DNA of 26,856 bases from a virus: IMG/VR virus record IMGVR_UViG_3300032293_002173, positions 1 through 26,856 of that record; one strand, given 5' to 3'. The notes under the pieces were generated by a model that worked only from the letters and a program-made list of their open reading frames with translations, was not told where the DNA came from and did no database searches. The stretch's first letter is position 1; each line of letters starts with the position of its first letter. This document shows positions 2-18,300 of the stretch, piece after piece. A program made the translations under genes and the position numbers.

Positions 2-2638
2 AATTCTTTATCGGCAACAACTTTATCCGCATATGGTTCAATCTTAAGTAGTGATTATGTGAGTTTAGAATCACAATATTCTAACATAATTAACCAATAT
101 GATTGTGATAGTGTTAATTTAGCAACTAATGATTTAAGTTCAGGTAGTAATGACGCTTGGTATTATGCGAACTTTAACAATTATACGAATAATGATTATT
201 CAGGATATTCTGCGTATTATGCGGTAACCACTTTAACTACTGGAGCATCTGGAAGCTTTACAGGAACTATTTCAGGTAAGGTTTACACTTACTCAGGTAC
301 TGCATATTCAGAGTTTAATAATATGGTTGTCGCAACACTTCGCTCTAGAGGTATTTCACTATATTCTAATAGTACAAGTAGTGATAACCACGGTCCAATA
401 TACGAAGTTAGTGGTTTAACTGACTTAGATATGGTTTGTACAGGTCAGTACTCAGGTGTGACTCAATCACCATATGAAACATTCTTACTTTCAGGTGTAA
501 CTAATGACGGTAATAATTTTACTTTTGAGACAAGTTTATCAGCATCATCATCAAAATATATTACTAAGGTTTTAGGTGTTGATAATTTTGGTAAATCAAG
601 ATTTGAAGTTCCTGTATTTGTTGAAGAAATTTATCCTGGTTCTTTAAATTATGCTTACAATCAAAACTATATTAAAGGTTTAAATTGTGAGTTAGTTGCA
701 TTACCAAGTGCTAGAAGTAGAAGTAGTCAGTCAATCGCTTGGAATTTGGAAAGGTATCAATCACCTGAAACACCGTTTTTTGTTTCTGAGTTGAGAGGTA
801 ATAAAGTTTATAGATTGTTTAAGTTCATCTCAATTTCTGATGGTGACTCAGCAAATACAGAAATAAAAGTTTCAATTGCAAATCTTTCATTTAATAATAT
901 GACTTTTGATGTATTGGTTAGAAATTTCTACGATACAGATGCGAATCCTGTTGTTATTGAAAAATTCACAAATTGTACTTTAGACCCATTATCCAATAGT
1001 TTTATTGGTGTTAAAATTGGTACATCTAATGGAGAATACGCTTTACTTTCAAAATACATTATGGTTGAAATGGCGGACGAAGCACCTGTAGATGCGTTAC
1101 CTTGTGGATTCTATGGTTATATCCAAAGAGAATATGGTTCATTAACAAATCCATCACCATATCCAAAATTCAAAACTAAATACTATTTTCCTGGTGAGGT
1201 TATTGCTAACCCTCCTTTTGATAGTCCTTTTGGTGGTAATAATGCGGTCGAATCTCCTGGTGACATTGTTAGAAGAAGTTATTTAGGTTTTTCAACACAA
1301 TTTGGTATTGACGAATCATTTCTTTCTTATAAAGGAAAACAAAATCCACAAGCTAATTGGGAATTAGCAACTGATTCAGTTCCTTGGAACGTTTTAAGTA
1401 AAGGTTTTCATATGGACTCAGGTGCGACTGTTGTAACAATAGGTAATATCTATGGAACAAGTGGTGAAACCGCATTTGAATGTGGAGTTGCTGATTTCAG
1501 ATTTGACCCTGAAACACAAGATAATCCTTATTATTTCATCTACTCAAGAAAATACACTGCATGTTTTGCTGGTGGATTTGACGGATGGGATATCTATAGA
1601 GAATTTAGAACTAACCAAGATAGATTCCAACTTGGAGCTTCTGGTTATTTAGCAGGAGCAGCACCATCAACAAGATACCCAACAGCAACTGGTGACGGAT
1701 TGTTCAAGAGAATTATTGTTCAAAACAATACACAGGATTTTGCAAACACAGACTATTATGCTTACCTACTTGGTATTTTAACTTACTCAAATCCTGAAGC
1801 TACAAATATTAATATTTTCGCAACTTCAAGTATTGATTATGTTAACAACTCAAATCTTGTTGAAGAAGCAATTGATATGGTACAATACCAAAGAGCGGAT
1901 TCTGTGTATATCGCAACCACTCCTGACTATAATATGTACTTACCAGATGCAACTGACCCTCAACAAATTATCTACCCTCAAGAAGCGGTTGATAATCTTG
2001 ATAACACAGGAATTGATTCTAACTACACAGCTACTTACTATCCTTGGATTTTAACAAGAGATACTGTAAATAACACACAAATCTATCTACCACCAACAGG
2101 TGAAGTTTGTAGAAACTTAGCGTTAACTGATAACATTGCATTCCCTTGGTTCGCATCAGCGGGTTACACAAGAGGTCTTGTTAATTCAGTTAAAGCAAGA
2201 ATTAAACTAACTCAAGAAGATAGAGATACGTTGTATCAAGGTAGAATTAACCCTATCGCAACTTTCTCTGATGTTGGAACTGTAATTTGGGGTAATAAAA
2301 CACTTCAAGTTGCGGACACAGCTCTTAACAGATTAAATGTTAGAAGATTGTTGTTACAAGCTCGTAAGTTGATTTCAGCAGTTGCTGTAAGATTGTTGTT
2401 CGAACAAAACGACCAAATCGTTAGACAACAGTTCTTAGATAGTGTAAACCCAATCTTAGATGCTATCAGAAGAGATAGAGGTTTGTATGATTTCCGTGTA
2501 ACGGTTTCATCAACACCTGAAGATTTGGATAGAAACACACTTACAGGTAAGATTTACCTTAAACCAACGAAGGCTCTTGAATTTATTGATATTGAATTCT
2601 TTATCACACCTACAGGAGCATCGTTTGAAAATATCTAA
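2..2638 (+). CDS. Tail sheath protein, 5'-truncated by window edge (T4 gp18-like)
   Basis: Forms the contractile sheath around the tail tube. The reading frame is open back to base 2, so the GTG at 59 is an internal codon and the true start lies upstream. About 879 residues are visible, against about 659 for T4 gp18, so the family's variable outer domains are probably enlarged here. The last 220 or so residues carry the sheath C-terminal signature: YYPWIL, then LPPTGEVCRNLALTD, a ...TFSDVGTVIWGNKTL segment, then LNRLNVRRLLLQARK and LLFEQNDQIVRQQF. The end matches the conserved 'G.iylkPt.alEfIdi.f.i' strand that links neighbouring subunits. The N-terminal half is rich in Ser, Thr, Asn and Tyr and I do not recognise its fold. 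The stop codon is followed within 7 bases by a strong terminator. Family assignment is confident; the domain limits of the N-terminal part are not. Confidence 0.92.
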   Translation, partial: NSLSATTLSAYGSILSSDYVSLESQYSNIINQYDCDSVNLATNDLSSGSNDAWYYANFNNYTNNDYSGYSAYYAVTTLTTGASGSFTGTISGKVYTYSGTAYSEFNNMVVATLRSRGISLYSNSTSSDNHGPIYEVSGLTDLDMVCTGQYSGVTQSPYETFLLSGVTNDGNNFTFETSLSASSSKYITKVLGVDNFGKSRFEVPVFVEEIYPGSLNYAYNQNYIKGLNCELVALPSARSRSSQSIAWNLERYQSPETPFFVSELRGNKVYRLFKFISISDGDSANTEIKVSIANLSFNNMTFDVLVRNFYDTDANPVVIEKFTNCTLDPLSNSFIGVKIGTSNGEYALLSKYIMVEMADEAPVDALPCGFYGYIQREYGSLTNPSPYPKFKTKYYFPGEVIANPPFDSPFGGNNAVESPGDIVRRSYLGFSTQFGIDESFLSYKGKQNPQANWELATDSVPWNVLSKGFHMDSGATVVTIGNIYGTSGETAFECGVADFRFDPETQDNPYYFIYSRKYTACFAGGFDGWDIYREFRTNQDRFQLGASGYLAGAAPSTRYPTATGDGLFKRIIVQNNTQDFANTDYYAYLLGILTYSNPEATNINIFATSSIDYVNNSNLVEEAIDMVQYQRADSVYIATTPDYNMYLPDATDPQQIIYPQEAVDNLDNTGIDSNYTATYYPWILTRDTVNNTQIYLPPTGEVCRNLALTDNIAFPWFASAGYTRGLVNSVKARIKLTQEDRDTLYQGRINPIATFSDVGTVIWGNKTLQVADTALNRLNVRRLLLQARKLISAVAVRLLFEQNDQIVRQQFLDSVNPILDAIRRDRGLYDFRVTVSSTPEDLDRNTLTGKIYLKPTKALEFIDIEFFITPTGASFENI

Positions 2639-2644
2639 TAAAAC

Positions 2645-2668
2645 GGGGGGAGAAATCCCCCCATTTTT
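2645..2668 (+). terminator. Intrinsic terminator after the tail sheath gene
   Basis: Six G, a six-base loop (AGAAAT) and six C form a perfect GC-only stem, followed by ATTTTT. It lies 7 bases after the sheath stop and ends 6 bases before the next ATG at 2675. The downstream gene therefore needs read-through or a very short leader. Confidence 0.9.
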
Positions 2669-2674
2669 AGCCAA

Positions 2675-3505
2675 ATGAGAAAAAGAATTTTAGAAGGATT
2701 TAAAGAAGATAAATCACCAGATATGAAATATTATGCGTTCGATTGGGACGATAATATTGTTCATATGCCAACAAAAATTATTTTGAAGGATTCTGATGGT
2801 GATGAAGTTGGTATGTCTACGGATGACTTTGCAAAGTATAGACACGATATAGGTAAAGAAGATTTCGATTATAATGGACAGACTATAGTTGGTTTTGCAG
2901 AAAATCCGTTCAGAAACTTTGGTACTCTTGGAGACAAAGATTTTTTAATTGACTCAATGAGGGCAAAAGAAGGTCCTGCATTTGAAGATTTTAAAGAAGC
3001 GATAAATAACGGTTCAATTTTTTCAATAATAACAGCGAGAGGACATAATCCAAACACATTAAAACAAGCGGTTTACAATTATATTGTAAATAATTTTAAT
3101 GGTATCGAAAAAGAGCAACTTGTTAAAAATCTAAAAAAATACAGAAGTTTTACAGGTGAAGATGAGATGTCAGATAATGAGTTAATAAAATCTTATTTAT
3201 CAATGAACAAGTATCATCCTGTTTCTTTTAATGATGAAAAAGGTGCTAAAAATCCTGAAGAAGCTAAAGTCCGTGCTATGGATGATTTTGTAGATTACAT
3301 AAAAGGAATGGCTTCATTATTAAATAAGAGAGCATGGTTAAAAAATGATATAGGTAATAAATTTGTACCTAGTAAGCCATCTATTGGCTTTTCAGATGAT
3401 GACCCAAGAAATGTAGAAGTAATGAAGAAACATTTTAAAGATAAACCAGATAATATAGTAAAGACTTATTCTACTGCTGGAGGCACTAAGAAGGAAGTTA
3501 ATTAA
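2675..3505 (+). CDS. HAD-superfamily phosphohydrolase
   Basis: Predicted 276-residue soluble HAD-fold hydrolase; the substrate cannot be told. Motif I is FDWDDN at residues 22-27, with nucleophile D23 and general acid D25. Motif II is the Thr of SIITARG (T120). Motif IV is GFSDDDPRN (residues 238-246), giving the Mg-binding acids D241-D243. A Lys-rich region between motifs II and IV could supply the motif III Lys, but I cannot single it out. The first 16 residues (MRKRILEGFKEDKSPD) precede the fold; a later in-frame ATG at 2723 would start directly at MKYYAFDWDD. The gene sits between sheath and tube, two genes normally adjacent in T4-like phages, and is closed off upstream by a terminator, so it looks like an accessory insert. 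Possible roles are a nucleotide or polynucleotide 3'-phosphatase. The HAD call is firm; the role is open. Confidence 0.82.
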   Translation: MRKRILEGFKEDKSPDMKYYAFDWDDNIVHMPTKIILKDSDGDEVGMSTDDFAKYRHDIGKEDFDYNGQTIVGFAENPFRNFGTLGDKDFLIDSMRAKEGPAFEDFKEAINNGSIFSIITARGHNPNTLKQAVYNYIVNNFNGIEKEQLVKNLKKYRSFTGEDEMSDNELIKSYLSMNKYHPVSFNDEKGAKNPEEAKVRAMDDFVDYIKGMASLLNKRAWLKNDIGNKFVPSKPSIGFSDDDPRNVEVMKKHFKDKPDNIVKTYSTAGGTKKEVN

Positions 3506-3556
3506 GAATAATTTTTTTTAAAAATAAAGTAAATAGAAAAATTTTTCAACACACTA

Positions 3557-3564
3557 TATTTATA
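3557..3564 (+). promoter_or_regulatory. Candidate late promoter motif TATTTATA upstream of tail tube gene
   Basis: One of four identical octamers found upstream of late genes, followed by GAAATAAA and 31 bases before the tube ATG. The 90-base gap that holds it (3506-3595) is very AT-rich and otherwise shows only a run of eight T without a GC stem. Promoter role is inferred from recurrence and position. Confidence 0.5.
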
Positions 3565-3595
3565 GAAATAAACAAAGAAACAAAAATTTAATAAT

Positions 3596-4084
3596 ATGGC
3601 TGATTTACTGATGAAAATGCCGATACCTTACGAACCGAAACGTCAAAACCGTTTCATTGTTAGGTTCCCATCAAGTTTAGGAATTAATGAGTGGTTCGTA
3701 GAAAGTTCTGCTAGACCTCACATCACTATTGCTGCTACTGAAATACCTTTCCTTAATACATCAACATATGTTGCAGGAAGATTTAACTGGCAAACACTTA
3801 ATATAACATTTAGAGACCCAATCGGACCTTCTGCAGCTCAAGCACTTATGGAGTGGGTTCGTCTTTGTGCTGAATCAGTGACAGGTCGTATGGGTTATGC
3901 TGCGGGATACAAAAAAGACGTGGACATCGAAATGTTGGACCCAACAGGAGTTGTTGTTGAGAAATGGATTTTATATGGTACATTCTTAACAGATGTTAAC
4001 TTCAATACCTTGGCATACAATCAAGACGGATTGGCAACAATTACATCAACAATGAGAATGGACAGATGTGTGTTAGTTTACTAA
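3596..4084 (+). CDS. Tail tube protein (T4 gp19-like)
   Basis: A 162-residue protein of the T4 gp19 tail-tube family, which stacks as hexameric rings to form the inner tube through which DNA passes. Length matches T4 gp19 (163 residues). Recognisable features are the N-terminal PKRQNRFIVRFPSS, the segment RPHITIAATEIPFLNTSTYV, the strand pair WQTLNITFRDPIGPSAAQAL followed by MEWVRLC, and a C-terminal LAYNQDGLATITSTMRMDRC strand typical of the family. The start at 3596 is preceded by an A-rich leader without a Shine-Dalgarno sequence. It follows the sheath locus (with the HAD gene between) and is followed by a long perfect hairpin, so it is probably transcribed as a short, highly expressed unit. 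Confidence 0.93.
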   Translation: MADLLMKMPIPYEPKRQNRFIVRFPSSLGINEWFVESSARPHITIAATEIPFLNTSTYVAGRFNWQTLNITFRDPIGPSAAQALMEWVRLCAESVTGRMGYAAGYKKDVDIEMLDPTGVVVEKWILYGTFLTDVNFNTLAYNQDGLATITSTMRMDRCVLVY

Positions 4085-4116
4085 TACTATTTATTACCAA
4101 ATAATTTTAACTATAT

Positions 4117-4153
4117 TTAACCGTAAAGACATAAACTTTACGGTTAATTTTTT
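4117..4153 (+). terminator. Long perfect hairpin with T-tract after tail tube gene
   Basis: TTAACCGTAAAG (4117-4128) pairs perfectly with CTTTACGGTTAA (4136-4147) around a 7-base loop, followed by six T (4148-4153). The next ATG is at 4156, only 2 bases after the T-tract. A near-match to the late motif (TATTTATT, 4088-4095) lies upstream of the hairpin, so it could also be a leader structure of the next mRNA. Confidence 0.85.
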
Positions 4154-4155
4154 AT

Positions 4156-4899
4156 ATGGAAGACCAATCAAGAGAATACGGACAAATGAATTTTACCCTA
4201 CCACACGACGTGGTTCCCTTACCTTCAGGGGGTATATTCTATAAAAACAAAAAGAAATCTGTTAAGGTAGGATATCTAACTGCCTCAGACGAAAATATAT
4301 TATTGGGTAATACTGATAATATTCAAATAACATTGTTGAGGAATAAAATCTATGAACCTGATGTTAGGGTTGAAGATTTATTGGAAGGTGACATTGAGGC
4401 TATTTTAATATTTTTAAGAAACACAGCATTCGGTCCTGAAATGGTTGTTAACAATATTGACCCTATAACAAAAAAATCATTTCAAAGTACAGTTAGATTA
4501 GATGAACTTTCAATTCTAAAAGGACAAGAACCTTCGGAAGATGGTACATTTGCCCTAATGTTACCTAAATCACAAACGCCTATTAAAGTTAAACCTTTAA
4601 GTTATGGTGAGTTAATAGATATTGAAAAAATGGGTGAATCTTATCCACAAGGAAGAGTGGTACCAAAGGTAACCTGGAGATTGGCAAAACAAATTGTGGA
4701 ACTAAACGGAAGTACCGATAAGGCTGAAATTGTTAAATTTATTGAACAAATGCCAATTTCAGATTCTAAATTTATAAAGAAATTTATGGATGAGAATGAA
4801 CCAAGGTTGGATATGAGAAGACAGATTATTACCCCATCAGGAGAGAAACTAACGGTGAATGTTGGTTTTGGGGTTGACTTTTTTCGCCCTTTCTTCTGA
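4156..4899 (+). CDS. Baseplate hub assembly protein, T4 gp26-like
   Basis: A 247-residue protein resembling the T4 gp26 family of baseplate-hub/tail-assembly proteins. The diagnostic N-terminal pattern is visible: VPLPSGGIFYKNKKKSVKVG, then YLTASDENILL, then DLLEGDIEAILIFLRNTAFG. This corresponds to the family's 'lPSkG.fYp', 'mTa.dEdIL' and 'LL.GDr.aili.lR...yG' blocks. The usual CxxC zinc-like pair after the last block is absent (NNIDPITKKSF instead). It ends in GVDFFRPFF. It lies between tail tube and tape measure, the normal position of tail-assembly chaperones. Its last 41 bases overlap a second ORF in another frame (4859-5038). The start is 2 bases after the T-tract of a hairpin, with no Shine-Dalgarno. 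The family call is good; the exact role in assembly is inferred. Confidence 0.75.
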   Translation: MEDQSREYGQMNFTLPHDVVPLPSGGIFYKNKKKSVKVGYLTASDENILLGNTDNIQITLLRNKIYEPDVRVEDLLEGDIEAILIFLRNTAFGPEMVVNNIDPITKKSFQSTVRLDELSILKGQEPSEDGTFALMLPKSQTPIKVKPLSYGELIDIEKMGESYPQGRVVPKVTWRLAKQIVELNGSTDKAEIVKFIEQMPISDSKFIKKFMDENEPRLDMRRQIITPSGEKLTVNVGFGVDFFRPFF

Positions 4900-5038
4900 T
4901 TATAGAAAAGGACAACTTGATGAGTTTTATTATTTAAACACATTAATGAAAATCACATATCAAGATTTTCTTCAAATGCCTTTATTTGCGAGAAAATATT
5001 TGTTGGATAAATGGATTGAATCAAATTCAAAGGACTGA
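4859..5038 (+). CDS. Small overlapping ORF, gp51-like/tail-assembly chaperone partner (or frameshift extension)
   Basis: A 59-codon ORF in the +1 frame relative to the gp26-like gene, overlapping its last 41 bases and ending at the tape-measure terminator. Past the overlap it reads DYRKGQLDEFYYLNTL, then MKITYQDFLQMPLFARKYLL, then DKWIESNSKD. The pattern 'Y.lm...y.dfl.MP.f.R.yL...i' resembles the small proteins paired with gp26-like chaperones in other myophages and the second half of frameshifted tail chaperones. Expression could use the ATG at 4859 (AGGAG at 4839-4843 is rather far, 15 bases). It could also use +1 (or -2) slippage on the T-run TTTTTTC at 4879-4885, giving ...GVDFF-ALSSDYRKG. 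I infer a real product from the pattern and the lack of any other explanation for 4900-5038. Confidence 0.6.
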   Translation: MLVLGLTFFALSSDYRKGQLDEFYYLNTLMKITYQDFLQMPLFARKYLLDKWIESNSKD

Positions 5039-5053
5039 TTTTTCAGTCCTTTT
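5029..5053 (+). terminator. Hairpin terminator before the tape measure gene
   Basis: AAAGGACTGA (5029-5038), loop TTTT, TCAGTCCTTT (5043-5052): a perfect 10-bp stem whose 3' arm ends in a T-tract. The stop codon of the small ORF (5036-5038) lies in the left arm. The late-promoter-like octamer starts 2 bases after the stem. Confidence 0.75.
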
Positions 5054-5054
5054 G

Positions 5055-5062
5055 TATTTATA
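5055..5062 (+). promoter_or_regulatory. Candidate late promoter motif TATTTATA upstream of tape measure gene
   Basis: Same octamer as at three other late-gene starts, here directly after a terminator hairpin and 18 bases before the ATG at 5081. The terminator-then-motif order supports a new transcription start. Confidence 0.55.
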
Positions 5063-5080
5063 TTGAAATAGTTTGAATAT

Positions 5081-6943
5081 ATGCAAGCAACAACACCACC
5101 AAAAGACGAAGGATTAGATGGGTTAGGGTTTTTAAATTTTAAAGACCCTGACTATTTTAAAAAATTCGTCAACGAATTTAAATCTGCAATTGGTAATCTC
5201 TCCGCAGGTGCGACTGAAATAAATGCAACTTTTGGACAAACAAGACAAAGAATTGTTGAGATTCAAACAGCAATTTCGGATGCGGTTCCTGGTATCACCA
5301 GATTAGGTGGTAGTGTAAACGATACAATTAATACAATAAAAGAATCGGCTGAAGCGTCAAGAAGAAATGTAGTAATAACAACAGAACAAACTGAAAAACT
5401 TTATGCCGCTTCTAAGTTAACAGGACAGTCAGTTAAGGGACTAGTTGATGGATTTGCGGATGTAGGAATTGGAGTACAAGCATTACCTAAACAATTAGAA
5501 AAATCTTTTGATTATATTAGAAGTATTGGAGGTAATTCACAACAAATTTTTACATCGGTCAATTCAAATATGGAGCAGTTGAATCGATATCAGTTTCAAG
5601 GAGGTGTTGAAGGTCTTACAAAAATGGCAGCTCAAGCCAGCATGTTAAGATTTGACATGAACGAAACTTTCAGATTGGCAGATAGAGTTTTAGACCCAGA
5701 AGGAGCAATCGAAGTTGCATCGGCTTTCCAAAGATTGGGAGTTTCTGCAGGAAATTTAGTTGACCCCTTTCAATTAATGAATCAATCAATTAACGACCCA
5801 TCAGGACTTCAAAATAGTTTGACAGATGTTGCAAAACAATTTACATATTTTGATGAACAAACAAAAACTTTTAAAATAAATCCTCAAGGTGTTTTAACAC
5901 TTAGGGAAATGGAAAAACAAACAGGTGTTTCTGCTAAAGAAATGAGTAAGCTTGGATTAGCAGCCGCAGAAGCAGACCAAAGAATTTCTGCAATTAAAGG
6001 GGTTGGTTTAAATTTAAGTGAAGAAGATAACCAATTATTATCTAACATTTCTAGAATGGGTGATGGTGGTGAATATGAAGTTAAAGTTAAAGATGAATCA
6101 GGAAAAGAATATTATGATAAAATAAGTAATATTTCGCAACAACAATTAGAAGCTACTTTAAAAGAACAAAAAGACGGACCAAAAACTTTAGAGGATTTAC
6201 AAAGGGCACAATTAACAACAACAGATTTAATATATGCCGACATAAACGCGATAAAACAAAAAGTTGTGTTTGGAGTTGTATCATCTCAACCATTACTTGA
6301 AGGTGTTGAAGGTGCTAGAAGAGTGACAACAACGGCAACGGGTGAATTTTCAAAATCATTTAAAACGGAAGATGTTAGAAATATAAGTGAATCGGTTTTT
6401 AAATCGGTAGGAGAATTATTTAAAGATGTTTCTTCAGGGAAAAAAGATAAAAAATCGGCAGCGGCTGATTTCTTAGATAAAATGCAAATGTTACAAGATA
6501 AAACCGGCGCTAATGTTATTGATGGGTTAAAGAAAACTGGGATTGATATTACCGAAAAGTTAACCGATAAAACAACAGGGGAATCATCTTTAAAGAAAAT
6601 CTTCACAGATTATTTTGAAAAAATTGGTCAGTTTGATACCGCTAAAAGTACTGATAAAGTAAAAAACGAACAGATTAATTCTTTAATGTATGGTAAGGAT
6701 GGTGCAGGTAAACAATTGGCAACCGCAAGTGCAAAAGGTGAAGCAACAACAATGACAACTAAATCTACCGTAGATGTTGGTGGTAAAATAATTGTTGAAT
6801 TTAATACACCAAATGGAACTGAGTTAACTAAAAAAATGCTTGATGATTGGGCAAACAGTCCACAAACTAAACAATATTTTGCTAACTTGAATTCACAACA
6901 GAATCCAACAAAGGCACCAATCAATACAACCTACGGGAACTAA
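5081..6943 (+). CDS. Tail tape measure protein (T4 gp29-like position and size)
   Basis: A 620-residue, mostly helical, Gln/Lys/Thr-rich protein. It is probably the tape measure that sets tail length and occupies the tube lumen; T4 gp29 is 590 residues. After about 30 residues comes a long amphipathic region (FKSAIGNLSAGATEINATFG onward). A conserved-looking central segment follows: MAAQASMLRFDMNETF, then DPEGAIEVASAFQRLGVS and NLVDPFQLMNQSINDPSG. The C-terminal third is low in complexity and lysine-rich (SSGKKDKKSAAADFLDKMQM). I see no long hydrophobic segment. It follows the gp26-like gene and its small partner and precedes the large baseplate genes, as expected for a tape measure. Using about 1.5 angstrom per residue, the tail would be near 90-95 nm. 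The call rests on context, length and helical character more than on a sharp motif. Confidence 0.75.
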   Translation: MQATTPPKDEGLDGLGFLNFKDPDYFKKFVNEFKSAIGNLSAGATEINATFGQTRQRIVEIQTAISDAVPGITRLGGSVNDTINTIKESAEASRRNVVITTEQTEKLYAASKLTGQSVKGLVDGFADVGIGVQALPKQLEKSFDYIRSIGGNSQQIFTSVNSNMEQLNRYQFQGGVEGLTKMAAQASMLRFDMNETFRLADRVLDPEGAIEVASAFQRLGVSAGNLVDPFQLMNQSINDPSGLQNSLTDVAKQFTYFDEQTKTFKINPQGVLTLREMEKQTGVSAKEMSKLGLAAAEADQRISAIKGVGLNLSEEDNQLLSNISRMGDGGEYEVKVKDESGKEYYDKISNISQQQLEATLKEQKDGPKTLEDLQRAQLTTTDLIYADINAIKQKVVFGVVSSQPLLEGVEGARRVTTTATGEFSKSFKTEDVRNISESVFKSVGELFKDVSSGKKDKKSAAADFLDKMQMLQDKTGANVIDGLKKTGIDITEKLTDKTTGESSLKKIFTDYFEKIGQFDTAKSTDKVKNEQINSLMYGKDGAGKQLATASAKGEATTMTTKSTVDVGGKIIVEFNTPNGTELTKKMLDDWANSPQTKQYFANLNSQQNPTKAPINTTYGN

Positions 6944-6959
6944 AAAATAATAGTTAACC

Positions 6960-6967
6960 TATTTATA
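6960..6967 (+). promoter_or_regulatory. Candidate late promoter motif TATTTATA upstream of the 1694-residue baseplate gene
   Basis: Octamer followed by TAAAAAC, with 13 bases between it and the ATG at 6981. Context and spacing match the copy at 20056-20063 (octamer plus TAAAAAG, also 13 bases). If it is a -10-like element, the mRNA leader would be only a few bases long. Confidence 0.55.
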
Positions 6968-6980
6968 TAAAAACAATTGA

Positions 6981-9900
6981 ATGGGGAATAGTCCACTAGA
7001 TTTTATAAATTCAGAAGGATTTAGAAAAAAATTGATAACAAGGAATTTGACACCATATGCCAAATCTCCAAACAAACCTACGCCCCCAACTAATTACGAG
7101 TATATTCAAACAGATACATCTGTTGTAGATAGCCCAGACCAGTTAATTGACGAACCAAGTTTTGCAAATAAACTATATCCATTAAACCAATGGGGTTCAG
7201 AAGGTGGGTACAAACAAGTTCCTGACCCTGGTGGATTGATGAATACCCATTCAAATGATGGTGAATATGGGTATATGGATGGTAAGATTATTGACGAAGC
7301 ATTACCTGAATCTCAAAGATGGAAATCAATAAATGCTTATTCTAATGGAACTGATAGTATATTAGATAGTGCAGAATTTTTTAATAGTATAGATTTGGTT
7401 GGACCAAATTCACAAGGAATTTATAATAACCAACCGTACCCAACATTTGATTCTTCTTCCTATTCACCCATTTCAATTTTACTTACTCCTGACCCACAAG
7501 GTAGTAATGGTCTTTTGAGTAGTGATTCGTTCATTGCTAGATTAGGTGCACAGACACTTAGAAAAAGTTTTGAAGAGAGAATTGCAACTGAAATAAGAAG
7601 AAATACTATAGGAAGAGCTAACGTATTCAATGTTAGAAGTGGAACAGACATTTTAAACATTGCAACAGGTAGAGTTCCATTAATTGAACCCAACTATACT
7701 ATTACAGTACCTTCTAATCCTATATTAGCGGCCACAGATTTTGCGTTAAGATTGGCGGGAAGCATCTTACCTGTATCACCAATATTTGGTTCTTATTGGG
7801 ATACAAACACGCAACTTGGACAACCAACAACAATACAACAAATGAACAATGCGTTCAGAAGAAGTACTGTTGGTAAGTTTTTTAATAGATTATTAGGTGG
7901 TGGACAAACAGGTTCACAGATAATGTACAATAATATGGGTGGTGGACAAAAGTCACGTTTGTTTGCCAACATAGATTTTAACAGATATAAGCCAAGTTTT
8001 GATAGAACTTTATTTGATAGATTGGGAGGAGCCATTGTAGGTTCAACAACTAATAATTCTGATTTTTATGTTGGTTCAACATCATCTGACCCATCAAGAG
8101 TATTTTCACCTGCAGGGGATATACCTGTAAATTCGTTTGGTATTGAGCAACAAACTGCAGTATACGGTCCACAAGAACTTGCTCAATTATATGAAGGACC
8201 AAGTAAAGAAATTAGGTTGGGTGCTAACGGACCAACATATAGTAATGGTGGTGGTATTGAGGGAGGAATGACTTGGGTATCACCAAAGTATAAGGGAAAT
8301 GCTGGTAAAAAAGTTGGAATTGGGGGCGAAATTACAAATGATGATGAAGACTTTAAACCATCATCATATAATACAACCGAATCAACAAACATAACATTTA
8401 GGGACGGGTCAATATTGGACGATACCCAAAGAATTATTGATAGCCAACCTCAAGGAGGTAAAAGACTACAGCATGTAGGTAATGCCATTGACCAAGTAAG
8501 TAAAGTCTTTAATGATGGGTACAAAGAGCTCACAAAGGGTTCTAGAGTTATCAAGTACACAGGAAGTATTGGACAAGAAGTGGGAACTGAATATTGTAGA
8601 GTTTTCGCCAAAGATATTCCATATCTTCAATATAATGACTTACAAAAAACTGATGGTATTACAACACAAGGAAGAAGATTTTCTTATTCTGTGTTAGATA
8701 ACACATATAATCTTAATATTGCGCCAAACAAACAAGAGGGAGGACAAGACTCAACAAACCTTATTAACGGACCTGGTGGGACTAGTACTAATATAGGTTA
8801 TGCTAAAAAATATATGTTTTCATTGGAAAATCTCGCTTGGAGAACTGCTAGCACTCCAGGTGGTGGGGGTTCATCCGTTGCTGAATTACCAATTTGCGAG
8901 AGAGGTCCGAACGGAGGAAGAGTTATGTGGTTCCCACCTTATGGATTAACATTTAGTGAATCAGTATCTACAAATTGGAATCAAAGTGATTTCTTGGGAA
9001 GACCAGAACCGATATATACATACAAAACAACTCAAAGAACTGGGTCTTTAACATGGAAAATAGTAGTAGACCACCCATCAGTTTTGAATGTTATTGTTAA
9101 TAAAGTTCTTAATAATGAAACTAACAATACAAGAATTAATAGTATGCTTGATGCATTCTTTGCAGGATGCTTAAAATACGATTTATATGAATTAGCTAAA
9201 AAATATTGGACGATAAATCCAAACGATTTGTATCAGTTACAACAGGCAATTACGTCACAAGAAATGACCAAAGAACAGATAGAATTTACAAAAGAAACAA
9301 TCCAAACAGGAAACAATTCACCAACAGGTGCGGGGTCTGTTACCGCACAGGCAACACCATTAGGTAATGATTATTTTAGCAAATATAATAGTACATTAGC
9401 ATTTTATTTTGGTAATGATTATCCAAAAAAAGGTGACGTACCTAACTATAATGTTGAATATGCCAGATATACATCACAGTCAAATAAAAATTTTTATTTT
9501 ACAAAATCACCATCTACGTCAGGACAAACAAGTCAGGTTTTCACTGAAGTTGTGACAGGAAACTACCAACTCATACAAGAAATGGTAAAGGACATTGCAA
9601 AACAATTAAACGATTACCCACAAGGTAATTTAGTAATAACTGTGGATTCAAGTTGTTCTGCACCGGCAACTGATGCTTATAACAAAGAACTCTCACAAAG
9701 AAGAATTGATTCAGTTGTAAAATACTTTAACGAAAGTCCAGAACTTGAAAAAGCCATCAAATTACAAAGATTATCTATTACAAAAGGGAAAAATTTTGGA
9801 GAAAATACAAATTCACAACCAACTAATTTCACTGTTGTAGATGGAAAATATTCTTTGGATAAAAAAACAACAGGTAAACTTGTTAATTGTACTAGCGAAG

Positions 9901-12065
9901 ACCCCAATGTTAAAGGAGGTGATGTTACTGTTGGTGCGGATGAAATTTTTACGTATGGTGCAATGGCATGTAGAAGAAGTACATTCAAAATTACAGGAAA
10001 TTTATCACAACCACAATCAACATCACCGACACCACCACCACAATACGTTGAAGTTGTTAAAGGAAATGTTGTTACTGAAACAGTAAAAACACAAAAAGTA
10101 GAACAACAATGGAAACCTAGAGATAATATAACCAAAAGAGTATTAAGGTCATTGCTTTCAGAGTGTGATTATTTTGAAACAATTAAACAAGAAACTCCTA
10201 TGGTATATGATAACCTAAGAGAAAAACTTAAGTTTTTCCAACCTGCATTTCACTCTATGACACCCGAAGGGTTAAATGGAAGGTTAACATTTTTACAACA
10301 ATGTATGAGACCTGGAGATACAATTCCAACAATTAAAGATATTGGAGGTGCTCCAGTATTACAATACAACAATGCGACAAACACATCTTTCGGAGCTCCA
10401 CCTGTTTTGGTTCTGAGAGTAGGAGATTTTTATAATACAAAAATACTTCCAACATCCTTAAACATCACATATGAAGACCTTGACTTGAACCCTGAAGGTA
10501 TCGGTGTTCAACCTATGATTGCAAACATAACTATGGCGTTTAATTTTGTGGGAGGAAGTGGACTAAAAGAATCTATAGATAAATTACAAAACGCTTTAAC
10601 GTTCAACTATTATGCAAATACTGAAATATATGACGACAGAGCGGATGTTACAGAAAACTCAGAATTCTTAAAATCTTTAGATAAAGAATTTTTATCTATG
10701 GCAAATCCTCCTGGAGCCCCTGCACTTAACCAATCACAACCACAAACTGGTCAAGACAATAATAGTCCAATAGGAACCGTACTTACAAATTTGGCAACAA
10801 CATCAGGAGAAACAGGAACCATAAGTTATGGTGACTTTATGACAAAAGTTGTAAATGAAACACAAACTTATTTTACTAATGTTATAAATAAAAACAGAGA
10901 AGTTGTTTCACAGTATAATAACGCAATGAGACAACAATGGCAAATGGAAAGGAATTATGTTGGAGGAACTATGTCAGTAGATTCTAATAAAAAAACAACA
11001 CTTTTTGGAAAGCCAACTAATATACAAAAGGTTACAAATGAAATTTTTGATTTATTAATTAAAGATATTAGTAATAATGACGAAGGATTTGTTAAATTTA
11101 TTAATAATCAAAACTTTTCAGATAAAGTAAAAAAAGTGATTAAAGAAAATTATACTAATGTATTAAATAATAGAAAAAATACATATCAAAATGCGATTAC
11201 TAAAATCGTACAAGATATGACAACAGTACAACAATCGTATATTCAAACATTAGCAAGGGTTAATACTATTACTTATGATGGTACAGCCAACACAGGAACG
11301 GACGGATATCAAAAGAAAAATGGGCCTGTTGTTATATATGTTACTTCAGGTACTTCAAAAGTTTCTGCATCTTCAAACGGTGCTTCAGACACACTTGTTG
11401 AATTGGTCAATGATGTAAAAACTTTGCAAAATAAAATTATTGAATTTAATACAATAACAAGTAATCCAATAACTTTTATGAATCCAGGTGATAAAAAAGA
11501 ATACTCTGGAAAATTAATTTACGAAATTGTTGGTGACGGAAATTCACCGTTAAATAAAATATCAGCAACAGAAACCTTTATACCTTTTAGTAAAAATGAG
11601 ACTTTTGCAAGTCCAAGTTTTAAAAAGGTGTATATGATTTTATCTAATGAGGTTACCGATGACAAAAAATATGAAACTTTCAAAAAAGAAATGATTGGTA
11701 ATATAATTGGAAATACTAAGTTATTGTCCGACGGGCAACAAGATATTGAAATACAATTTGACAAATATTGGATTGGAACCGCAAAACCACTCTTTAGTGA
11801 AGAAAATACAATTACAAAAAACTTTATAGACAGTCTTGAAAAAAATGATTTGAAAAATTTTGTTAAGTTCACACCATTTGATTCAAAAACAAGAGAATTT
11901 ATATACAGTACAGATAACCAAGCAAATACAAATACAAAAGATTCACAACAAAATTTAATAAAAGGATTGGGTGCGTCAACAAACCAAAATACAAACACAA
12001 AAACTTGGTGTGATAGTAATGGAAATGTTTCAGACATATACATATCAAAAGTAAAACTTAACTAA
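6981..12065 (+). CDS. Very large baseplate structural protein with internal OmpA-like domain
   Basis: A 1694-residue virion protein, most likely part of the baseplate. Residues 1-600 are Asn/Ser/Gly/Pro-rich with no fold I recognise. Residues about 614-730 (ENLAWR..., PNGGRVMWFPPYGLTF, then GRPEPIYTYKTTQRTGSLTW and KIVVDHPSVLN) and about 1080-1220 (FQPAFHSMTPEGLNGRLTFL, FGAPPVLVLRVGDFYNTKIL, LDLNPEGIGVQPMIANITMA) look like two parts of one conserved baseplate module, split by an insertion. The insertion holds an OmpA-C-like domain at about 856-1005: LVITVDSS..., then AYNKELSQRRIDSVVKYFNE, ISKGKNFGE-like text and a closing CRRSTFKI strand. This family binds peptidoglycan. The C-terminal 400 residues are helical, then mixed. 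The stop overlaps the next start (TAATG), implying coupled translation. Baseplate assignment is from context and the conserved module. Confidence 0.72.
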   Translation: MGNSPLDFINSEGFRKKLITRNLTPYAKSPNKPTPPTNYEYIQTDTSVVDSPDQLIDEPSFANKLYPLNQWGSEGGYKQVPDPGGLMNTHSNDGEYGYMDGKIIDEALPESQRWKSINAYSNGTDSILDSAEFFNSIDLVGPNSQGIYNNQPYPTFDSSSYSPISILLTPDPQGSNGLLSSDSFIARLGAQTLRKSFEERIATEIRRNTIGRANVFNVRSGTDILNIATGRVPLIEPNYTITVPSNPILAATDFALRLAGSILPVSPIFGSYWDTNTQLGQPTTIQQMNNAFRRSTVGKFFNRLLGGGQTGSQIMYNNMGGGQKSRLFANIDFNRYKPSFDRTLFDRLGGAIVGSTTNNSDFYVGSTSSDPSRVFSPAGDIPVNSFGIEQQTAVYGPQELAQLYEGPSKEIRLGANGPTYSNGGGIEGGMTWVSPKYKGNAGKKVGIGGEITNDDEDFKPSSYNTTESTNITFRDGSILDDTQRIIDSQPQGGKRLQHVGNAIDQVSKVFNDGYKELTKGSRVIKYTGSIGQEVGTEYCRVFAKDIPYLQYNDLQKTDGITTQGRRFSYSVLDNTYNLNIAPNKQEGGQDSTNLINGPGGTSTNIGYAKKYMFSLENLAWRTASTPGGGGSSVAELPICERGPNGGRVMWFPPYGLTFSESVSTNWNQSDFLGRPEPIYTYKTTQRTGSLTWKIVVDHPSVLNVIVNKVLNNETNNTRINSMLDAFFAGCLKYDLYELAKKYWTINPNDLYQLQQAITSQEMTKEQIEFTKETIQTGNNSPTGAGSVTAQATPLGNDYFSKYNSTLAFYFGNDYPKKGDVPNYNVEYARYTSQSNKNFYFTKSPSTSGQTSQVFTEVVTGNYQLIQEMVKDIAKQLNDYPQGNLVITVDSSCSAPATDAYNKELSQRRIDSVVKYFNESPELEKAIKLQRLSITKGKNFGENTNSQPTNFTVVDGKYSLDKKTTGKLVNCTSEDPNVKGGDVTVGADEIFTYGAMACRRSTFKITGNLSQPQSTSPTPPPQYVEVVKGNVVTETVKTQKVEQQWKPRDNITKRVLRSLLSECDYFETIKQETPMVYDNLREKLKFFQPAFHSMTPEGLNGRLTFLQQCMRPGDTIPTIKDIGGAPVLQYNNATNTSFGAPPVLVLRVGDFYNTKILPTSLNITYEDLDLNPEGIGVQPMIANITMAFNFVGGSGLKESIDKLQNALTFNYYANTEIYDDRADVTENSEFLKSLDKEFLSMANPPGAPALNQSQPQTGQDNNSPIGTVLTNLATTSGETGTISYGDFMTKVVNETQTYFTNVINKNREVVSQYNNAMRQQWQMERNYVGGTMSVDSNKKTTLFGKPTNIQKVTNEIFDLLIKDISNNDEGFVKFINNQNFSDKVKKVIKENYTNVLNNRKNTYQNAITKIVQDMTTVQQSYIQTLARVNTITYDGTANTGTDGYQKKNGPVVIYVTSGTSKVSASSNGASDTLVELVNDVKTLQNKIIEFNTITSNPITFMNPGDKKEYSGKLIYEIVGDGNSPLNKISATETFIPFSKNETFASPSFKKVYMILSNEVTDDKKYETFKKEMIGNIIGNTKLLSDGQQDIEIQFDKYWIGTAKPLFSEENTITKNFIDSLEKNDLKNFVKFTPFDSKTREFIYSTDNQANTNTKDSQQNLIKGLGASTNQNTNTKTWCDSNGNVSDIYISKVKLN

Positions 12066-12388
12066 TGGCATCTCAGTATTGGAACAGATATAGTCAATTT
12101 TTAATTAACGGTGAGCAAACTGTAGTACCATTTGTACAATTACCACAAAAGGCTTCAGACAAAGCTTACATTTATAAAGTTGCTAGAAGTAGATTAGATA
12201 AAGTTTCTCAAGAGTATTATAACACACCTTATTTTGGTTGGTTAATTTTACAGGCAAATCCACAGTTTGGTGGATTAGAAAATAATATCTATGATGGTGC
12301 GATATTGATTATTCCATTTCCGCTTCTACCTTCATTACAGGACTATAAAGGAGCAATAGACAATCATTTTTATTATTATGGCAGGTAA
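12065..12388 (+). CDS. Small LysM/tail-protein-X-like baseplate protein
   Basis: A 107-residue protein whose central part, RSRLDKVSQEYYNTPYFGWL followed by ILQANPQFGGLENNIYDGAI and LIIPFP, has the LysM-like pattern. That pattern is an early 'D..s..yY.....w.i..aNp' helix-turn-helix and a late 'dG..l.iP.p' strand. It is shared by tail protein X and by the LysM-like part of T4 gp53-type wedge proteins. In contractile tails such proteins join the tube/baseplate and sheath initiator regions, and LysM folds can bind glycan. The start overlaps the upstream stop by one base, and the next gene starts 11 bases inside its 3' end, so the three baseplate genes form a translationally coupled unit. Confidence 0.7.
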   Translation: MASQYWNRYSQFLINGEQTVVPFVQLPQKASDKAYIYKVARSRLDKVSQEYYNTPYFGWLILQANPQFGGLENNIYDGAILIIPFPLLPSLQDYKGAIDNHFYYYGR

Positions 12389-15300
12389 CTTACAAGCTGA
12401 CAACAGTGGAAATATTTTATGTGAATTTGATTACAACAACATTATTGTTGTAGACCCAAACAGAACTATTGATGCTTTTGGTAATATACAAGAACGCCTT
12501 GTTGACCACGAAAATCTTGTAATGTATGCAAATTTAGAGGCCGAACTTCTACCAAGAACAAAACTTGCAGTTGGAGCTGCACCAAACGATAGAATTAGAA
12601 CAATATCAGTTGCAAAAATGAATTTTTTAAAACCAACAAAAAATTCTTATTTAGGAACAGGATATTATGATGAGATAACTGGAGAGAATACTACGCAGTT
12701 TAAGGGAGAAAATCAAATGATGACTTCTGTTTCAGTACCTAAAGATGGAAGTAAACCATATGTCGTAGATGCACCAGCAGACCTAAATAACATTATGGAT
12801 AATGGTCTTTTGGGGATAACTCAAATTAATATTCAAACAAATACTTCATTCGTACCATCAGTTAGGATAGAATTAGAGGATGTACAAGGAAGGGCTCTAT
12901 TTCAATTAGGTAACAATTCACCGTATGCGGCATTCTTTAATTTACCATATCCACCCTTTTATTTAACTCTAAAAGGTTATTACGGACAAGCCATTAGATA
13001 CCAATTAAATTTAGAAAAATTTAATGCTAGATTTAACTCATTTAGTGGTAACTATCAAGTTAGTTTAGAGTTTAAGGGATATAAATTTAATATTCTTAAT
13101 GAGGTTGCAATGGGACATTTATTAGCATTACCTCATATGTATAGCCAAACTTTTGATGTTGCATCTTCTCCTGTTGGTGCACAAACAACATCAAAAACAG
13201 CAGAAAGTCAATCAAAAACACAAAATGTAAGTACCGCCAATAGTTCAATAAGTAGTACTAATGTTGTTTCTCAAATAACATCAGAGAGAGGGTATCAAAA
13301 AATATTTGAGGTTTATAGTGAATATAAGGCAAAAGGATTGGTACCTCCAGACTTACCCGAACTAACACTTCTTCAGTTAATGAATAAATTAGAAACTTTC
13401 GAAAAAAATATTGAAAATTCTTTTCCTAAAGCTGAAGTTGAACCATTAACAAATATTAGAAGTTATAGAGAAATATTAAAAAATTATTTCGAAAACATTA
13501 GAGGAAGTAATTCTTGGTTTACTACGTATATGGACCCTAAACCATTAATTAAAAAAGGTGGACAAAGAATCTACACATTCAAAAAGTTAGAACTTCAAGT
13601 TATAGATGATGCAAACAATAAATTAAAATCTATAATTGAAAATTATAACAATACCTTATCTCAAAACGCAACCTTAGGTAAGGGAAAACCTGATGAAATA
13701 AAAAACCCAATTGCATATACAAATATTGTAGTTAGTCCTACTTCATTTACTGATATTGATTGGGATGAAACTGCAAAAATTCAATTAGGTTTACCGTCAG
13801 TTACTCAAACACAAGTTAATAATGTAAAGTCAGATTATAGTAATTTAACTAAACCTTATTTTACAACAGATAAAAACGGTAATATTGTAGAAATTAGAAC
13901 TGCATTTTTTATTTTTGAAGGTGAAGGAAGATTTGATAAACAAATCACATCTTTAGAGGCACAGGCAAATAAAAAATTATCTTTTTACGAATCAGAAATA
14001 AGTGCAAAACTTCTAAGAAAAATAGAAGACAGAGCCACAGGTATCGGATTTAGACCAACGGTTAGAAATATTACCGCTGTAATTATGGCTTCGGCTGAAG
14101 CGTTTATAAGAATGTTAGACGATGTTCATACCAACGCTTGGAACGTTAAGTATGACCCTATAAGAAAATCCGCAATATTAGATAACACTAGCTCGGCTCC
14201 AAATACTGAAGACCAAGACAATTTAGTTATCGCACCACTTGGTGATAGCCAATTAAAAAATGCAGAAATTCCTGTTTATCCTTGGCCACAATTTTTTGTT
14301 GAATCACCTGAAGATAAAAAAGGTAGATTCCAATTAAAGTATATTGGTGACCCATCGGTTGTTGATTTAACAAAAGGATATTTGTATGACAAATGGCCTG
14401 AAGTTGAATTTGTTGAAGAATATATGAAAGGTATTACAAAAAAATTCGACGCACCACAAGCTCCAGAACCTTTAGCAAATGAAAGAGATACTAATACTAT
14501 TACAATAAATGCGATAGAGTTCCCATCATTAGGATTAGCATATGCTAATAAAGAAGAAATAAAATTCTTTTATGAAATATGGGAAAGACAATTTTTAACA
14601 TCACATTATTCAGGGTTAGTCAGGGCCAATGCAAATCAAGTTCAAGATTTATTTAAATTAAATGTACAAACTGAAGTTAATAACATTTATGACGCGATTA
14701 ATGTTAGTGCACCATACCTAAGTTTAAAACTTAAAAATTACAATATTAACGCGGGTAATTATATTTCATTTTTAGAAGGTATATCTAACAACGGAACAGG
14801 TAGAGCATATCAAGATTTTATTAGAGATTTCTTTGTTACACCATACATAAAAACAATGACTGAAAACCCAACAGCGTTATTGAGTCTTTTTGATGTGGGT
14901 AAAATTCCACAATCAAACGCAGATTCATTAGCGTTAGAAAAATTAATAAAAAACGCCACAAATGATAAATTTGTTGTAGATACAATTCCATTCACAAACC
15001 CAACTTGGGTAACATCAAATATGAGTAATGGTATTACGTCAAATGGAAATGATGTTTATAATACAACAAAAACATTGAAAATCTTTGAACAAAGAAAGGC
15101 AATATCAAACTTCACAGACATATTTGATTTCTCAACAAACAGACCCGTAACTAATTTTTCATATATAAATTACCAAGACCCAACATTAGAACTTTTAAAT
15201 ATTGAAAGTAATCAAATAGGATTAAGAACGTTTTACGAAGAAAGAAAACCAACATCGTTTACGACAACAGAAGGGTATGTGTATGGAACATCACCAACAT

Positions 15301-18300
15301 CAAGTATGCCATACCAAACAACAACATCACTTTTAAACACACCTTACTTTATTAATGCAATTCAAAATGGGGTATATAACAACAGAAGAAAATCTAAATA
15401 CCCTTACATACAAGCCGCCTATATTTTTTTAAATTCTTTACCTATTGCGTCACTTAGAGAAAAATATAAATCATATAATGTTAGTGATGATTTAGATTAC
15501 ATTGCATCTTGTTTTAATAAATTCGGTGCGGTACACAAATTACCATACGCTTGGATTTTAAAGATGGGTTCAGTTTGGCATAGATACAAGAAGTATAAAG
15601 AAAGTGGGATTGATATATTATCAAGTGCTTGGAGTAATTTTGACTATTTAACAAACTATAGTCCAATTTTAAGTTCAACAACACAACAATATGATTTTAA
15701 TTATAAACAAGTTAATAATTCACAAATTGTTGAAACGACGGAATCAATTGTTTTACAATCAATAAATCCAAATGATATTAAAATAAACACAGGATTTTAT
15801 CCAAAAGTTATAAATGATTTTAATTATTTTTATAATTCATTTGATTTATATGTAGACTATAATAATACGGAAATACAAAAAAGTGTTGATTTGGGGATGA
15901 AGGTTTATAATTTTCCAAATTCAAGGTTTAGTGCGAATCAAAATGATAATAATTTAACATTAAACACTTGGTCAATTACAATACCAAATTTTAGTGACAC
16001 ACCTGTTACCAAAGATTGTAATACTAAAAGTAATGCAATTGGTACAGAACATTTTATCATACCTTCATTTGGTTGTAATATAAATCAGACAAAATATGAA
16101 TGTATTGATAACCCATATGCAGATACAAATCTTTCGGTTAATTTAACGAATAATAATAATATGTATAACGGCTCAGTTAGAGCCCTATGGTCGGCACCAA
16201 ATTTTGGATATTTCAATAATGATGAACTTGTTATCCCACCAACTGATTCATATTTAAATGAAATATCCGCGGATAAATCAGAACAGTCACCATTCAAACT
16301 TTTAACCAAAGACAGTTACTCAAAAATAGAAGAAATATTTTCAGTTTTTGAAAAAAGAGATTTAGATAGTTTTGAAAACGAATTTTTAAATTTTTCTAAA
16401 TCAATAACTGACGCAGATTCTGCACAACCAGAAGCCCAATATGACACACCAACTGTTAATCAAAATGCTAATTTCAGAAACTTCCAATCTTTGTTTAAAA
16501 CAATGATGACAGTTCCCGCACCAACACCAATCGAAACTGATTCTGAATTTTTTAATTCAACAATAGATAGTCAATATAAAAACGTACAAATCTTACTTAG
16601 AAACTTTTTAGAATATGATATTATATTAAGAATAGGTAATCCATCAAAATATAAAAGAAGGATTTTTGATTCTTATTTATCTTATCTATCAACACCTAAT
16701 GTAATTGACCCAATACAATTCAAACCATATATTGTTGGTTCACTACCTACAAGAACAGGTAGTGTGACTTTACAACAATCCAAAACACAGAACTCAGCTG
16801 CTTGGTTAACTTTGGAAACTGAAGTCGGATTCTCAACAATACCAAATGTTGTATATAGTTCACAAGGAAGTTATATTACAGATTTTTTTGTTGAAAACAA
16901 TATTGAGTTCACTTCAAGAAATATTACCCTGTTGGCTCCGTTGATTAAAATGTATGCAACCGCAAAACTTCAAACACCAGGACTTACTCCGGCACAATTC
17001 AAAAACCAATTAAATGGTTACTTAGACCAAGAAACAAATATACAGAATAATTTTATAAATGATGTTATGGCGGGAGTTAGAGCAAAATTACCTAACCAAC
17101 AACAATTGCCCGAAAGAGTAATATCAAGTGCCATTTCAGGAGAACAAAGTAAGGTGGAAAACTATGAAGTTTTTAAAGCTTTGAACGATAAATGGATTGC
17201 GGGTGCTGACTTTAAAAACCAAACATTGTTTGAAGATATTTTATTTTTAGATAGAGCATCCAGAAATATTGGTGAAACAATATTGTTAGATATTTTTGAT
17301 TTGAAAGGTATGTTTGGTATTGGTGGTAAACAAGGTGAATACTCGCTAAATCAAGCAATGAGTGTATTCACGTTCATTAGTGGGCTTTTGATAAAAAATA
17401 ATTTCACAGTAATGAACCTTCCTGCATATGTTAACTTCTATAATGTACAAGATGTTGATGGTACAACAATACCACAACCTGAAGGTAGTTTAGAATTTGC
17501 TAATAGTATGTGGGGAACATTCTTGGATGTTGATTATAGAAAATCATCATCAAAAATGGTTTGTTTTTATGTTGGAAAACCATCATCATATCTTGATTTA
17601 CCTAAAGGTAATTCAAGATACCGAGACGATTCATTTGAATTAAGAAGAGCATCTGAAAACCCATTGATAGAGAATCAACAAGGAAAAAAAGATTGGGCGT
17701 TATCAAATAAATGTGTTGGATTTAATGTTGATTTAGGAATAAGAAATCAAAACGTATTTTATTCTTTCTCAGTATCACAAGATAATGGAGTTGCAACTTC
17801 TGAGGCAATCAATACCCAAATTAATATGGTTGACCAAGCCACAGGTAGAAATACTGCAACACAAAACGTTGGTTTATATAACCTTTATAAACAAAGAAGT
17901 TATAAAGCAACCGCGACTTGTTTAGGAAATGCATTACTACAACCAACAATGTATTTCAATTTAAGACACGTACCAATGTTTAATGGTCCTTATATGATTA
18001 TGGATGTTCAACATACAGTACAACCTGGAAATTTCCAAACAACATTTACTGGTGTTAGACAAGGTATCTATGATTTACCCGCGATTGACTCATTCTTACA
18101 AAGTATCAATAAAAATTTATTAACAAGATTAGAACAGTTATTAAAAATTAAAAAGGATTCACCAATAGTACCAGCAACATCAAACCAACAAAAAAACAAT
18201 AATGTAGTTCAGAAAGCAGAAAATACTCCAGATGCCTCAAATAGTTGTGTGTCTAATGTTGACGTTACTCTGTATCGTGAATATACAAATACTACATCTA

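Follow-up and report, generated by a model that had tools for sequence, protein, structure and literature searches.

The 26,856-nucleotide stretch of viral DNA analysed here (the window; positions 1 to 26,856 of IMG/VR record IMGVR_UViG_3300032293_002173) contains an open reading frame at 6981-12065 (+) for a 1694-residue protein (open reading frame list and translation), the initiator of the tail tube in a phage with a contractile tail. The tube-like module of this protein is interrupted by a domain with the OmpA_C fold. By analogy with T4, the insert may ride on the tip of the tail tube and bind peptidoglycan stem peptides, a reading to which we assign a probability of about 0.5. The phage belongs to a family of large, uncultivated phages that probably infect Bacteroidota, a host that we infer. 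The protein is laid out as follows.

6981..12065, +, tail-tube initiator/baseplate protein with insert, 1694 residues; positional orthologue of Flavobacterium phage immuto35A_235
8898..9071, +, first half of the tube-initiator module, residues ~640-697, a beta-hairpin; by blastp, HMMER and hhalign against compact homologues
9072..9374, +, linker preceding the OmpA domain, residues 698-798, helical in part; modelled with low confidence, variable in the family from ~770
9375..10007, +, OmpA_C-type domain, residues ~799-1009; by Pfam, AlphaFold and structural matches, in all 114 homologues
10008..10247, +, linker following the OmpA domain, Pro-rich and helical, residues 1010-1089; by sequence, with helices modelled there at low confidence
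10248..10565, +, second half of the tube-initiator module, residues ~1090-1195; by hhalign and collinear order

An OmpA_C fold inside a tail-tube initiator module

In the AlphaFold model of residues 600-1240, computed from an alignment of 21 homologues, only residues ~799-1009 are predicted with confidence (predicted local distance difference test score, pLDDT, mostly 70-95), and the model confirms that this segment adopts the alpha/beta OmpA_C fold. The best Foldseek match of the domain core in the PDB is PorE (6top, E 7.6e-4), and structural alignment of the core gives Z scores of 10.2 for Pal (4pwt), ~10 for OmpA (3td3/3td5), 9.3 for PorE and 9.0 for TagL (7bba), with root-mean-square deviations of 2.6-3.8 over 111-137 residues. 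The domain begins with beta-strand 1 (FYFGND, ~806-813), which a long insertion separates from alpha1. An earlier note on this DNA had read an OmpA-C pattern at about 856-1005 and had proposed structure prediction as a check; prediction does return a confident OmpA-C fold at ~799-1009, so that the fold stands, on Pfam, AlphaFold and the matches to Pal, OmpA, TagL and PorE, while the true onset lies ~50 residues earlier.

The PF00691 OmpA match covers residues 865-922. An hmmscan of the whole 1694-residue protein scores it just below the 27.2-bit cut-off (E 1.8e-5, 25.5 bits), a genome search scores it above the cut-off (E 1.0e-8, 30.3 bits), and relatives score 15-19 or have no match. The weak hmmscan score is what a chance similarity, with no relation to OmpA, would have in its favour; we consider this explanation negligibly probable, because the fold, the motif, conservation across the family and the cellular relatives all agree and the structural alignment refutes it. 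An antisense open reading frame of 152 residues, at 9677-10135 (-), overlies the OmpA-coding region and is probably spurious.

The OmpA domain is placed between the beta-hairpin and the next helix of the tube-like module. The whole insertion (~698-1090) exceeds the OmpA domain, the rest being helical and Pro-rich linkers. Residues 644-710 are homologous to residues 543-609 of immuto35A_235 (blastp E 2.9e-5). The first half of the module scores ~20 bits by HMMER, versus at most 2.3 in shuffled or reversed controls, and 47 by hhalign (E 7e-9), a score reached by 0 of 100 column shuffles. For the second half, hhalign gives a score of 21.5 (E 0.005), likewise reached by 0 of 100 column shuffles, and an HMMER profile of the second half gives no match. 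In the negative regions of the hhalign test, many column shuffles reach the scores obtained. Judged by sequence, the first half is homologous to the compact module, and the second half weakly but collinearly so.

Sequence comparison finds the compact, ~180-residue form of the module in Microcystis phage Mel-JY01, IMG/VR contigs L263-265 and Flavobacterium phage immuto. Its structural model (mean pLDDT 62.5) matches the tube initiators of the Anabaena contractile injection system (CIS), Pvc7, Afp7, cyanophage A-1(L) and the T4 baseplate, among others, with Z of about 9-11; HMMER gives no match to PF19266 CIS_tube, although the structure points to the CIS_tube fold. By this predicted structure and the homology of both halves, the interrupted module is of the tail-tube initiator fold (T4 gp48/gp54, Afp7/Pvc7, Mu gp43). 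The earlier note had already recognized an interrupted baseplate module; its halves, put at 614-730 and 1080-1220, are corrected to ~640-697 and ~1090-1195.

The homologue without an insert, a comparison that the same note had suggested, is found in immuto. The gene order there is the same (sheath, tube, hub, tape measure, immuto35A_235, LysM-like protein), and immuto35A_235, the positional orthologue, has a compact, uninterrupted module and no OmpA domain. There is no OmpA match anywhere in immuto or Mel-JY01. In LR756508 the module is present, but a relative of the 1694-residue protein was not found within 16 kb around its sheath.

A conserved pocket and its cellular relatives

Searches of IMG/VR return several hundred relatives of the 1694-residue protein, some on contigs of 309-321 kb. 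The OmpA domain is present in 114 of the 114 homologues in which both flanks are readable (47 non-redundant at 90% identity), with 253-286 residues between the flanks and the YNxxLxxRR motif in each. In comparisons beyond the nearest relative, the domain is ~36-50% identical, versus ~80% for the flanks. The following residues are identical in 47 of the 47 non-redundant sequences.

9657..9659, +, Ser893, replacing the Asp that binds diaminopimelic acid (DAP) (PorE Asp576, TagL Asp486)
9678..9704, +, YNKELSQRR, with Tyr900, Asn901, Leu904 and Arg908 corresponding to PorE Tyr583, Asn584, Ile587 and Arg591
9888..9971, +, Cys970 (9888-9890) and Cys997 (9969-9971), on either side of the final part of the fold

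PorE holds the peptide by hydrogen bonds from three side chains (Asp576, Asn584, Arg591) and by hydrophobic contacts of Tyr583 and Ile587 (PMC7192894); the TagL pocket is formed by Asp486, Asn494, Leu497 and Arg501 (PMC8253398). The Asn-x-x-Leu-x-x-x-Arg pocket motif of canonical DAP-binding OmpA, Pal and MotB is present in the phage domain (Asn901, Leu904, Arg908). The Asp of GHTD is absent, and the domain is therefore classed as a Ser variant of the OmpA_C fold and not as a canonical DAP binder; one of the three peptide-bonding side chains of PorE (roles per PMC7192894) is replaced. PorE has six contact positions in the beta2-alpha2/alpha2 region, and five of them fall among the 22 invariant columns of 218 (hypergeometric P about 4e-5), although some are part of the fold signature too. 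The loss of the canonical Asp and the retention of an Arg in the RR region had both been noticed before and hold throughout the family, as Ser893 and Arg908. The Asp site itself had been sought in DSSC; the canonical position, eight before the Asn of YN, is occupied by Ser893 in the context CSAP. A Cys970-Cys997 disulfide is possible, and it is conceivable, as speculation, that it would form only in the oxidising periplasm.

When 84,980 bacterial and archaeal genomes are scanned by pattern, matches occur only in Saprospirales/Chitinophagales proteins, which by eye have a PorE-like TPR/WD40/OmpA architecture. Among 148 Bacteroidota genomes sampled, every match that covers both beta1 and the long insertion has 'SP', the Asp site being a Ser, and GHTD-type domains match over ~50 residues only. 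In the tree, a branch with support of 100/99 divides the phage and Ser-type domains from canonical GHTD domains, in a sample of cellular rows biased by collection with the phage profile; two rows on the GHTD side also have Ser (GHASAEG type). The phage domain thus shares with the Saprospirales Ser-variant domains the Ser at the Asp site, the long beta1-alpha1 insertion and a common branch. Kinship to PorE proteins is limited to the OmpA domain, TPR, WD40 and CRD having no Pfam match in the phage protein.

Because the nearest cellular relatives, the Saprospirales PorE-like proteins, also have Ser, the lost Asp is no sign of decay; it is inherited from, or common to, the cellular Ser-type subfamily. 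The lost Asp as the sign of a dead domain was rejected, the same Ser being fixed in the cellular subfamily and the remaining pocket invariant. The domain was probably acquired from a Bacteroidota host gene. Its absence in other phages and its presence in every member suggest a gain on this phage branch, a direction read from this distribution and not from a rooted tree.

Kinship to Bacteroidota PorE-like Ser-type domains, together with the fact that the Ser variant is a stable subfamily and not a decayed copy, is also compatible with another partner in the envelope: the domain could mimic host PorE-like or OmpA-type proteins and dock on their partners, or its Ser-variant pocket could fit a ligand other than meso-DAP. 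We consider this improbable; no partner is known, and the literature searched gave no experimental ligand for Ser-type domains.

A possible grip on peptidoglycan and its alternatives

In T4, the baseplate remains outside the outer membrane, and gp48 and gp54 accompany the tube into the periplasm (PMC7600766). If ring position and copy number are as in T4, six copies of the OmpA domain would be displayed on the outer face of the initiator ring. Upon sheath contraction, the domains would cross the outer membrane with the tube tip, like T4 gp48 and gp54, and would then bind the stem peptides of host peptidoglycan; the tube would thereby be held in the wall while the inner membrane opens and DNA passes. 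A fuller version, to which we give somewhat less than even odds, is that giant phages of one clade carry, on the leading ring of the tube, an OmpA-type domain derived from their Bacteroidota hosts, with which the tube grips peptidoglycan in the periplasm, and that the Ser-variant pocket of the domain suits those hosts.

Several points weigh against a grip on peptidoglycan by the tube tip. The ring position, the copy number and the fate of the 1694-residue protein are carried over from T4, and the module flanks in the protein itself fold with low confidence (AlphaFold). NxxLxxR belongs to the fold signature too, so that its invariance is no proof of ligand binding, and every copy has Ser where PorE and TagL have the DAP-bonding Asp, so that DAP affinity may be low or specificity different. 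The LysM modules of other tube initiators are structural. As to the host, Shine-Dalgarno motifs are missing from the start codons, but there is no enrichment of the Bacteroidota promoter motif (2 found versus 3.2 expected).

The cell wall had earlier been proposed as an anchoring point for the baseplate. Wall anchoring is plausible, since OmpA, Pal, TagL and PorE use domains of this family to bind peptidoglycan (PMC8253398, PMC7192894), but the tube tip would be a better candidate for it than the baseplate: the carrier belongs to the gp48/gp54 type, and in T4 these proteins leave with the tube while the baseplate stays outside the outer membrane (PMC7600766). Anchoring of the whole baseplate by the domain is accordingly very improbable.

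The same proposal contrasted the OmpA domain with the LysM domains to which such a role is more often given, and here a caveat is needed: LysM modules in the tube initiators of Mu (gp43) and others are regarded as structural (PMC11915804), and this phage has a LysM-like protein as well.

12065..12388, +, LysM-like baseplate protein, 107 residues (T4 gp53 / tail protein X / A-1(L) gp16 type); PHROG 7145, E 7.4e-5

A profile of 12 relatives of this protein matches LysM domains and the baseplate protein gp16 (8kea_J), and two of the relatives match PF05489 tail protein X. In A-1(L), LysM proteins occupy the space between hub and wedge (PMC10966104). Because the LysM-like protein is encoded next door, the OmpA domain is an addition beside it. 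It may instead be that an OmpA-type domain was recruited to clamp tube initiator, hub and wedges together, as a purely structural part that binds no peptidoglycan in infection. LysM modules play such a role in Mu gp43 and in proteins of the gp53/gp16 type, the LysM of A-1(L) gp16 is ringed by wedge, sheath-initiator and tube-initiator subunits (PMC10966104), and the canonical Asp is absent from all copies. However, the slot for a clamp seems to be filled already by the adjoining LysM-like protein, and the pocket-lining residues are invariant while the other surface of the domain drifts, the reverse of the pattern expected for a clamp on conserved partners. We regard a structural clamp as less probable than the grip on the wall, yet as a serious competitor to it.

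The passage and persistence of contractile tails in the periplasm after puncture are poorly known. A grip of the tube tip on peptidoglycan can be addressed through a conserved OmpA-type domain in a tube initiator, which offers a testable handle, and the nested domain suggests that the injection needle may hold onto the cell wall during entry. The finding also highlights the Ser-variant OmpA subfamily of Bacteroidota.

Tail neighbourhood and comparison with known systems

Upstream of the 1694-residue protein, the window encodes the following tail components (context).

59..2638, +, tail sheath; Pfam and PHROG matches
3596..4084, +, tail tube; Pfam and PHROG matches, immuto tube 38% identical
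4156..4899, +, baseplate hub-type protein; PF12322/PHROG 150

The gene order is sheath, tube, PF12322/PHROG 150 hub-type protein, 620-residue protein, 1694-residue protein, 107-residue baseplate protein, 2555-residue protein and DNA replication genes. The sheath is unusually long (859 residues), with a good sheath-family match confined to the C-terminal ~350 residues. The 620-residue protein (5081-6943) occupies the position of the immuto tape measure (1006 residues in immuto), to which similarity is undetectable. The 2555-residue protein (12378-20045), with no PHROG match and a weak collagen-like Pfam match, is likely a wedge or fibre-bearing baseplate protein. Terminator-like hairpins with T-runs lie between the tail genes, strong ones at 2645-2662, 4117-4147 and 5029-5052; 14 such sites are observed in 2500-12500 versus 4.8 expected.

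There is no homologue of the 1694-residue protein or of its domain in 50,697 phage records, and no whole-protein homologue in genome_contigs. Other OmpA matches in the phage records are those of Bacillus phage G gp249/gp250, which do not adjoin annotated tail genes, and Microcystis phage MaAM05. In phage G, which has a Gram-positive host, the tandem gp249 and gp250 are each annotated as an OmpA/MotB domain. The MaAM05 record (MW495066.1; source given as hospital wastewater) has pomA, ompA, fliM, fabI and murJ around the match; it resembles bacterial more than phage DNA. The open-access literature searched yielded no description of an OmpA domain in the baseplate or the tube initiator of a phage.

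The closest compact counterparts, immuto35A_235 (716 residues) and the 2255-residue protein of Mel-JY01, have the same module without an OmpA domain. With the C-terminal domain of PorE from the type IX secretion system of Porphyromonas gingivalis (6top), the phage domain has in common the OmpA_C fold, the Bacteroidota lineage and YNxxLxxRR; with the Saprospirales PorE-like TPR/WD40/CRD/OmpA proteins, it shares the Ser for Asp and the long beta1-alpha1 insertion. In PorE and PorE-like proteins, however, the domain is the C-terminal part of a cellular envelope protein, whereas in the phage it is nested within a tail protein, and P. gingivalis PorE retains the Asp and binds a stem peptide. TagL and evolved TssL of type VI secretion likewise place an OmpA-type domain, with the same Asn/Leu/Arg pocket, in the service of a contractile injection machine, but TagL belongs to the membrane complex of the firing cell, not to the tube, and retains Asp486. 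Mu gp43, Milano gp25, Afp7/Pvc7 and the R2 pyocin likewise combine a tube-like domain and a module of the peptidoglycan-binding type in one protein; there, a LysM regarded as structural lies after or within a helix-rich domain, whereas the phage OmpA_C domain lies inside the tube-like module. Tube initiators with modules of the peptidoglycan-binding type are known already, as is the use of OmpA domains in type VI secretion anchoring; new with respect to the literature searched is a phage tube initiator whose tube-like module encloses an OmpA_C domain.
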